Below, piece by piece: positions 241-2,629 of a stretch of DNA of 16,742 nt. The translations under genes and the position numbers were made by a program. This DNA comes from Coriobacteriaceae bacterium (lineage in GTDB: Bacteria > Actinomycetota > Coriobacteriia > Coriobacteriales > Coriobacteriaceae). The stretch is from assembly GCA_902362275.1 (NCBI GenBank), contig CABIWB010000011.1, positions 17,087 through 33,828 on the forward strand, written 5' to 3'. Each line of letters opens with the position of its first letter. Position 1 is the first letter of the stretch. Under the pieces are notes generated by a model that was given only the letters and a program-made list of their open reading frames with translations, made no database searches and was not told where the DNA came from.

Positions 241-2292
241 ATGCAGGAGGCATGGGAAGGCTTCAAGGAAGGCATTTGGACGGGAGAGGTTGACGTTCGA
301 GACTTCATCCAGAAGAACTACACCCCCTACGAGGGCGACGAGTCGTTCCTCGCCGGCCCGACTGAGCGTACCAAGGAGCTGTGGGGCGAGGTTCTCGACC
401 TGCTGCTTAAGGAGCGCGAGCAGGGCGGTGTCCTCGATATGGACACCAAGACCGTCACGGGTATCGTGAGCCACCCCGCTGGCTACATCGATAACGCCCA
501 CCGCGAGAAGGAGACCATCGTCGGCCTCCAGACCGACAAGCCGCTCAAGCGCGCGCTGCACGTCAACGGCGGTATCCGCATCGCTTGCCAGGCTGCCAGC
601 CAGCACGGCTATAAGGTCGATGAGAACGTTGTCGAGCGCTACACCTTCGAGCGCAAGACCCACAACGCTGGCGTCTTCGATGTCTACACCCCCGAGATGC
701 GTGCTTGCCGCTCGGCTCACATCATCACCGGTCTGCCCGATGGCTATGGCCGCGGCCGCATCATCGGCGACTACCGTCGTGTTGCCCTGTACGGCGTCGA
801 CTACCTGATCAAGGACAAGGAGGCCCAGAAGGCTTCCACCCCGACGGTCATGACCGCCGACAACATCCGCGATCGCGAGGAGCTGCAGGAGCAGATCCGC
901 GCCCTCGGCGAGCTCAAGATGATGGCCGAGACCTATGGTTTCGACATTTCCAACCCTGCTACCAACACGCAGGAGGCCATCCAGTGGATGTACTTCGCCT
1001 ACCTCGCTGCCGTCAAGGAGCAGAACGGCGCCGCTATGTCCATCGGCCGTACCTCTACGTTCATCGACATCTACGCCGAGCGCGACCTTGCCAACGGTAC
1101 CTTCACCGAGGAGCAGATCCAGGAGTTCGTGGATCACTTCATCATGAAGCTCCGCATGGTCAAGTTTGCCCGTACCCCCGAGTACCAGGCCCTGTTTACT
1201 GGCGATCCGCAGTGGGTCACCGAGTCCATCGGCGGCATGGGTGTTGACGGCCGTACGCTCGTTACCAAGATGAGCTACCGCTACCTGCACACGCTCGAGA
1301 ACATGGGCACCAGCCCCGAGCCCAACATGACCGTTCTGTGGTCGACCCGTCTGCCCGAGAACTTCAAGAAGTTCTGCGCCAAGACTTCCGTCGCCAGCTC
1401 CTCGATCCAGTACGAGAACGACGACCTCATGCGCGTCTATCACGGCGACGACTACGGCATTGCCTGCTGCGTGTCCTCCATGCGCATCGGCAAGGAGATG
1501 CAGTTCTTCGGCGCCCGCGCCAACCTTGCCAAGTGCCTGCTCTACGCACTCAACGGCGGTGTTGACGAGGTCTCCAAGAAGCAGGTCGGCCCCAAGTATC
1601 GCGCCGTCGAGGGCGATACGCTCGATTACGACGACGTTGTGGCCAAGTACAACGACATGATGAAGTGGCTCGCTGGCGTGTACGTCAACTCGCTGAACAT
1701 CATTCACTACATGCACGACAAGTATTGCTACGAGCGCATCCAGATGGCTCTGCACGACAAGCACGTGCACCGCTGGTTCGCTACGGGCATCGCTGGCCTT
1801 TCCGTCGTGGCTGACTCCCTGTCCGCCATCAAGTACGCCAAGGTCCACCCCGTCCGTGATGAGAACGGCATCATCGTCGACTTCGAGACCGAGGGCGAGT
1901 TCCCCAAGTACGGTAACGACGACGACCGCGTCGACCAGATCGCTCACGACGTTGTGCACCAGTTCATGGAGTACATCCGCATGAACGACACCTACCGCAA
2001 CTCCGTGCCCACGACCTCGGTTCTGACCATTACCTCCAACGTCGTGTACGGTAAGAAGACCGGCTCCACGCCCGACGGCCGCAAGGCTGGCCAGCCGTTC
2101 GCCCCGGGTGCTAACCCCATGCACAAGCGCGATAGCCACGGCGCCATCGCTTCGCTGTCTTCGGTTTCCAAGCTCCCGTTCCGCGATGCTCAGGACGGCA
2201 TCTCCAACACCTTCTCCATCATCCCGAGTGCGCTCGGCAAGGAGGACCAGGTGTTCTTTGGCGATATCGACCTTGATCAGCTGGGCGAGTAA
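241..2292 (+). CDS. pflB: Pyruvate formate-lyase catalytic core, lacking the glycyl radical domain
   Basis: This is the catalytic body of pyruvate formate-lyase, which converts pyruvate and CoA to acetyl-CoA and formate in the cytosol of anaerobes. The 683 residues follow E. coli PflB almost throughout: [19 protein letters not shown] near the N terminus, [20 protein letters not shown], the active-site pair Cys409-Cys410 in [21 protein letters not shown], and [20 protein letters not shown]. The protein stops shortly after LGKEDQ, where E. coli PflB (about 760 residues) continues into its C-terminal glycyl radical domain. That domain is encoded by the next gene (2378-2629). The body shows no internal break, so this is a split enzyme rather than an obvious pseudogene. 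The ATG at 241 is about 7 codons shorter than the E. coli start; its Shine-Dalgarno AGGAG (224-228) is 12 nt away, a long spacing, but no other in-frame start exists upstream. Confidence 0.95.
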
Positions 2293-2293
2293 C

Positions 2294-2318
2294 TATTGTT
2301 AGTGCTATACTAACAATA
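2294..2318. repeat. Perfect 10-bp inverted repeat between the two pfl genes
   Basis: TATTGTTAGT (2294-2303) is exactly mirrored by ACTAACAATA (2309-2318) across a 5-nt spacer, GCTAT. It begins right after the pflB stop codon. It is AT-rich and has no U-tract, so it does not look like a normal terminator. It could be an mRNA processing or stability hairpin that sets the ratio of the two subunits, or a DNA operator. TATACT (2306-2311) inside it resembles a -10 box, which would allow separate expression of the small gene. Confidence 0.75.
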
Positions 2319-2377
2319 ACGATTACTGATTAGTGCGCCGGTTTCGGCCGGCGCCTATCGATCGAAGGAGACACATT

Positions 2378-2629
2378 ATGAAGGTTTCTGAAGTTTCCGA
2401 GACTCAGGCCGATAACCTGGTCCACATGCTCGACGCTTACGCCGAGAAGGGTGGCCACCACCTGAACATCAACGTCTTCAACCGTGAGACGCTGCTCGAC
2501 GCTCAGGCTCACCCCGAGAAGTACCCGCAGCTGACCATCCGCGTTTCCGGCTATGCCGTGAACTTCCACACGCTCACCAAGGAGCAGCAGGACGAGGTCA
2601 TTGCGCGTACCTTCCACGACAAGTTCTAA
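2378..2629 (+). CDS. grcA: Separate glycyl radical subunit of pyruvate formate-lyase (GrcA-like)
   Basis: This 83-residue protein corresponds to the C-terminal glycyl radical domain of pyruvate formate-lyase. It carries [20 protein letters not shown], then [20 protein letters not shown] and the signature RVSGYAVNF, in which Gly58 is the expected radical site, then [14 protein letters not shown]. Together with the upstream 683-residue core it makes about 766 residues, matching full-length PflB. In E. coli the related GrcA (YfiD, about 127 residues) can replace a damaged PFL C terminus; here the core has no such domain, so this protein should be essential for activity. PflA (9856-10674) would generate the radical. 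The ATG at 2378 has a strong Shine-Dalgarno, GAAGGAG (2364-2370); an upstream in-frame GTG at 2333 has no homologous residues after it and is less likely. Confidence 0.92.

Follow-up and report, generated by a model that had tools for sequence, protein, structure and literature searches.

In gut anaerobes, pyruvate formate-lyase (PFL) is one of the chief sources of formate and acetyl-CoA, and in E. coli PflB (TIGR01255) it is one chain of about 760 aa that holds a barrel, a Cys-Cys pair and a glycyl radical motif and is served by an activase. Glycyl radical domains encoded apart from a core are also known, as in phage T4, whose Y06I acts on oxygen-fragmented host PFL and has relatives in other phages. 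According to excerpts of its description, E. coli GrcA/YfiD (PDB 6owr; TIGR04365) is a free-standing domain of 127 aa with a disordered 60-aa N-terminus that repairs cleaved full-length PFL. An engineered pair, truncated E. coli PFL (tPFL, residues 1–695) plus YfiD, likewise combines a core lacking the radical domain with a separate radical domain; the relevant sections of Andorfer et al. (2021, PMC8683613) report that it is as active as wild type once activated, that binding was too weak for ITC, and that tPFL received 32-fold less radical than did the enzyme of the cleaved type. Searches of the open-access literature listed no account of a PFL that is naturally in two pieces. Already known from databases are two PDB cores and the small family as NCBIfam NF038360, ‘autonomous glycyl radical cofactor GrcA3’, a name that NCBI applies to Collinsella and Enorma proteins and that implies a cofactor or spare part.

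Here we analyse a 16,742-nt stretch of Coriobacteriaceae DNA from a Collinsella-like gut bacterium, referred to as the window, in which a PFL lies in two genes (Table 1). A preliminary description had proposed that PFL is encoded here as two polypeptides, the second from a gene with its own Shine-Dalgarno sequence, and both proposals hold: the small gene starts at an ATG at 2378 and ends at a stop at 2629, in a frame different from that of the core, with its AAGGAG motif 7 nt upstream. We conclude, with high confidence, that the locus encodes an obligate two-subunit PFL.

Table 1. Features of the split PFL locus and its activase in the window
Feature	Coordinates	Strand	Basis
PFL core subunit, 683 aa, Cys409-Cys410 (codons 1465–1470), without complete glycyl radical domain	241..2292	+	ORF and profile match
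Spacer, 85 nt, two predicted RNA hairpins (about 2294–2318, 2335–2354), Shine-Dalgarno AAGGAG 2365–2370	2293..2377	+	
Glycyl radical subunit (GrcA3), 83 aa, RVSGYAV, Gly58 (codon 2549–2551)	2378..2629	+	NF038360, PFL alignment
PflA activase	9826..10674	+	TIGR02493, 283.9 bits vs cut-off 231.75

The core alone reaches 1085.6 bits against TIGR01255 (cut-off 994.2) over model positions 1–665 of 744, and is thus above the equivalog cut-off despite 79 absent positions. The small protein matches positions 663–743, so that the two halves cover one PFL model end to end. When aligned to E. coli PFL (1h16), the core extends to residue 680 and the small protein corresponds to residues 679–756; hence nothing of PFL has been lost, and the break precedes the final strand of the barrel, an assignment that we take from a section of PMC8683613. 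Cys409 and Cys410 correspond to E. coli Cys418 and Cys419, a pair that is invariant in 42 aligned cores, and Gly58 corresponds to Gly734. The core fold matches E. coli PFL with 59% identity in the structural alignment; modelled by itself, the small protein gives a weak prediction (mean pLDDT 63). Judged by sequence, the core has the PFL barrel and the Cys409-Cys410 pair but lacks the glycyl radical loop, and the small protein is the missing domain (about E. coli PFL 679–759) with its own ribosome site, the pair being conserved. Unlike PflB, which shares the barrel, both motifs, the activase and the inferred reaction, the enzyme is thus divided near E. coli residue 680, and the radical domain that TIGR01255 places on the same chain is a separate ORF. 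The small protein qualifies as GrcA3 (164.6 bits vs cut-off 158) and falls below the cut-off for GrcA itself (TIGR04365, 96.8 bits vs 170), although 60 residues align closely with YfiD. Since the core lacks a domain that described PFLs carry on the same chain, and its PFL activity is a prediction, it might have drifted to another glycyl-radical reaction; we consider this extremely unlikely, because the core exceeds the PFL cut-off without those 79 positions, lies far under the cut-offs of the other glycyl radical enzyme families listed in the profile search, and retains the identity to E. coli PFL given above.

A sequencing error at 2290–2378 that separates one frame into two, raised beforehand as a potential refutation, is ruled out, because 25 further C. 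aerofaciens-group loci, at least 3 of which repeat a genome (same contig and coordinates in two collections), keep both frames, the stop and the spacer. Among these and the window, 26 sequences in total, variable sites amount to 221 of 2052 nt in the core, 7 of 85 nt in the spacer (whose alignment has a single 1-base gap column) and 17 of 252 nt in the small gene; the 3' flank has 59 in 86 nt, where the alignment is gapped. Core codon differences from the window, counted pairwise and summed over the 25 loci, comprise 888 synonymous and 53 non-synonymous changes, a ratio indicating strong purifying selection. This weighs against a reading in which the truncated core is decayed or redundant and the small protein serves, like E. 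coli GrcA/YfiD, as a spare part for an intact PFL elsewhere, a reading on which the genome survey below also bears.

In principle, readthrough of the stop codon or frameshifting could still join the two pieces in one chain, and 13 of 89 split loci do have both genes in a common frame, interrupted only by the core's stop. The frame is shared, however, in 28 of the 89, near the one third expected, all three stop codons are used, and spacer lengths vary widely. Moreover, all 63 of 63 distinct spacers of 50–400 nt have an SD-like motif in the 20 nt that precede the small gene (the other 26 loci comprise 22 shorter spacers, 1 longer and 3 duplicates), about six times the control rates of 14% for random 20-mers of the same spacers (162/1180) and 17% upstream of internal core-gene ATGs (618/3709). 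We rejected readthrough and frameshifting on the absence of a conserved frame or stop, and regard a single chain as extremely improbable.

Separate translation of two subunits, the reading we favor, is accompanied by a structured spacer. Window positions 2286–2384 fold at -32.2 kcal/mol (z -3.88), and spacers tend to fold better than their shuffles, with z < -2 in 38 of 63 (60 shuffles each). Its own Shine-Dalgarno sequence and the structured spacer would allow the small protein to be made in amounts unequal to those of the core. The spacer also contains a palindrome (2296–2316; found once, 0.03 expected in the window) whose half-sites resemble a Rex operator. The Rex consensus spacing differs from the 7 nt of this palindrome, and the stretch also folds as RNA, which leaves it a possible operator. 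Scanning the spacer for promoter- or terminator-like sites, sigma-70 included, yielded none; an extended -10-like element, TGCTATACT, is visible, but the sigma-70 scan placed no site there and we rejected it as a promoter. Directly 3' of the small gene lies a long, near-complete hairpin (2639–2798), with 30-nt arms at 2652–2681 and 2753–2782 and a fold of -113.7 kcal/mol (z -13.1) for 2636–2800. Of 42 genus genomes, 20 have 8–14 matches each to parts of it and two others have 1 or 4; with many matches per genome, some places on both strands, it looks like a dispersed repeat.

The activase gene is found 7 kb from the split genes rather than adjacent to them, with a LacI-type regulator, two GH32-like proteins, a PTS transporter and a DegV protein encoded in between. 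Related loci are more compact: of 80, 65 contain an activase-like gene, and in 55 of the 64 measured it lies no more than 400 nt 3' of the small gene. By its profile, the PflA of the window is the cognate activase, and its action on the core and small pair is predicted. Elsewhere in the window (13595–14954), the genes for a DUF3990 protein and for a protein that ends in an HTH_3 domain overlap, and the two may form a toxin-antitoxin-like pair.

The same split proved widespread when related genomes were surveyed. Searching genome contigs with the small protein returned at least 579 relatives, and 79 of the best 80 have a truncated core 5' of the small gene in the same orientation; the contig of the 80th (L100) starts too near the small gene to hold a core. 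As these 80 are the most similar matches, they give no measure of how common unlinked small genes are. Record titles include Collinsella aerofaciens, C. tanakaei, C. stercoris, Slackia equolifaciens, Lancefieldella rimae, Blautia caecimuris, Ruminococcus albus, R. bicirculans and Holdemania, and the split form is present in Coriobacteriales, Lachnospiraceae, Ruminococcus, Erysipelotrichaceae and one Spirochaetales MAG. All 125 split loci of the tree set, some of which share a genome, hold the small gene. Within a sample of 43 genomes of the genus, 42 match the small protein, 39 of them with a free-standing form (at least 81% identity); G013 carries a fused PFL, the only matches in G036 and G042 are to 836-aa frames whose weak scores mark them as different glycyl radical proteins, and G033 (72% complete) shows a core fragment and no small-protein match. 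GrcA3 exceeds its cut-off in 13 of 296 Actinomycetota genomes, all from the order of the window.

Where the split form occurs, it appears to replace the one-piece form rather than add to it, a view supported by counts in two groups. The 247 Coriobacteriales genomes, a sample rich in the genus of the window, include 90 with a full-length split-type core, 26 with a fused PFL and 1 with both, and the 120 Lachnospiraceae genomes include 41, 49 and 3, respectively; the two-chain form thus occurs in 90/115 and 41/87 genomes with a complete PFL gene of either type. Independence would predict both forms in 9.5 and 16.7 genomes, against 1 and 3 observed (Fisher P 6e-5 and 2e-8, kinship ignored). Typing relied on match ends, identities and frames in search listings, with three partial Coriobacteriales cores (G033, G238, G247) and fragmentary, joined or sub-cut-off Lachnospiraceae rows left out; a check on 40 fetched Coriobacteriales loci confirmed 20/20 fused and 20/20 split assignments. 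The nearest genome (G001) has a single other Gly_radical match, a 752-aa frame that we considered as an intact PFL and rejected, since it is the anaerobic ribonucleotide reductase NrdD adjoining NrdG, both above their NCBIfam cut-offs. Two named C. aerofaciens strains (G248, G250) hold split PFL only, and a passage of PMC9381525 lists this species as a formate producer.

These data also bear on the spare-part reading. It draws on the GrcA3 family name, on the genomes with both forms (G150, G259, G269, G358 and G392; 2 of 27 genomes opened through split loci hold a fused PFL too) and on G274, a genome with split PFL whose second GrcA3 gene (L238, 4347–4622, minus strand) lies on a contig other than that of the core. 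Coexistence with an intact PFL, which characterizes GrcA/YfiD, is nevertheless not the rule in relatives: G001 has no other PFL, a fused PFL occurs in 1 of the 90 split Coriobacteriales genomes, and both-form genomes fall far below independent expectation, kinship again ignored. Together with the purifying selection on the core, this makes the spare-part reading very unlikely for the window, and the genomic pattern points to a subunit rather than to the cofactor that the family name implies. The unlinked gene of G274, the one such case among the 27 opened genomes, is possibly a spare small subunit. As to the earlier claims, an intact pflB doing the work elsewhere would have undone the split reading, and none is present in the nearest genome, with both forms together being rare in relatives; that the split is the obligatory form stands insofar as it replaces one-piece PFL in relatives, through which alone the genome of the window itself is judged.

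Phylogeny suggests an old origin for the split. A FastTree analysis of 156 cores (101 distinct split, 53 fused and 2 PDB chains; cores with fewer than 600 aligned residues left out) unites the split cores with both PDB chains in a clade of 107, with support of 0.984 (LG) and 0.979 (WAG), adjoining the E. coli-type fused PFLs. The result shifts with sampling. The first tree, built without the PDB chains, groups a core from a viral contig (L184) with 40 fused PFLs, and under WAG without those chains the smallest clade with every split core includes 13 fused proteins, one of which is E. coli PFL. When L184 and the PDB chains are both omitted, a single clade of split cores returns (support 0.838). 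A single fission is thus likely for the cellular split cores and possible for L184.

Four fused proteins (L209, L203, L204, L210) are nested within the split clade. L209 joins core and radical domain through a 43-residue linker with three cysteines (CGCEEVTC) that resembles a split-core C-terminal tail followed by the start of the small protein; no cysteine occurs in 33 of 35 parsed fused linkers (18 of the 53 fused proteins did not parse). L209 is apparently a natural re-fusion of the split enzyme, a Rosetta stone that provides strong indirect evidence that two chains form one enzyme. The other three lack the tail relic and would be either a second, cleaner re-fusion or a tree artefact. Most simply, this history would be explained by a single ancient fission in cellular genomes, together with transfer between Bacillota and Coriobacteriia and one or more re-fusions.

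The two PDB chains (38la and 38lb, both named ‘Formate acetyltransferase’) lie among the split cores and are, by this tree position, natural split-type cores. Chain 38lb has 739 residues, equal to the 718 aa of the complete split core P0121 plus 21, and is identical to it at 677 of 678 aligned residues; the 21-residue tag on both chains presumably points to a structural-genomics source. No chain of either entry matched the small protein, and 38lb looks like half an enzyme.

Phage records also carry the domain, with matches to the small protein in 1538 of 50,697. Of 12 IMG/VR viral contigs, three (L184, L187, L194) combine a PFL core with a GrcA3-like gene; the core of L187 is interrupted, and this contig further carries nrdD and a ThyX-like gene, and the viral nature of L184 is unsure since it lies at a contig end beside an ECF-transporter-like gene. 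In the stretches retrieved from the other nine (L185, L186, L188–L193, L195), the small gene is present and a core is absent; it lies near a gp23-like capsid gene in L188 and near nrdD and nrdG in L189.

We envision that, on docking, the small protein completes the core with the absent final strand and with the glycyl loop, and that its conserved N-terminal segment (QxDNLVxLLDGY, probably a helix) aids docking. PflA would then take hydrogen from Gly58, the radical would move to the Cys410/Cys409 pair, and pyruvate and CoA would be converted to acetyl-CoA and formate. The laboratory cut in tPFL lies about 15 residues later and binding there is weak, whereas the natural small subunit includes the preceding segment; if the enzyme is an obligate two-subunit one, the natural partners would have to bind more tightly. 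Since the glycyl radical is the target of oxygen, damage would fall mainly on the 83-aa subunit, which could be replaced from a separately translated pool, and subunit exchange after oxygen damage is plausible.

A further observation concerns the core tails, which in 125 split loci are mostly acidic, with cysteines in pairs or more; those of the C. aerofaciens group, the window included, have none. Among 96 distinct tails, 21 have no cysteine, none has one and 75 have at least two, compared with 69.1, 22.5 and 4.4 expected from the core's own cysteine frequency (kinship ignored). More tentatively, and with the odds somewhat against it, the small protein may be a disposable radical cartridge: oxygen would cleave only the 83-aa subunit, made separately and perhaps in excess from the structured spacer, and the core could be reloaded many times; the acidic, cysteine-paired tail, present in most split cores and lost in the group of the window, could make docking depend on redox state, and the natural interface could overcome the weak binding of the engineered truncated E. 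coli PFL. Hypophosphite is no more than a lead, in a species that may have the split form: a passage of PMC12208373 reports that 1 mM reduces formate production by Atopobium vaginae by about 90%.

What is of interest is less the window itself than the large group to which it belongs. For annotation, the locus illustrates that a complete enzyme can be misread as a truncated gene plus a ‘spare part’. For the family, the split enzymes may serve as a natural system for how a glycyl radical domain docks in trans, the step at which, in the relevant part of PMC8683613, the engineered E. coli version fell short, and for whether an oxygen-sensitive radical can be made replaceable.
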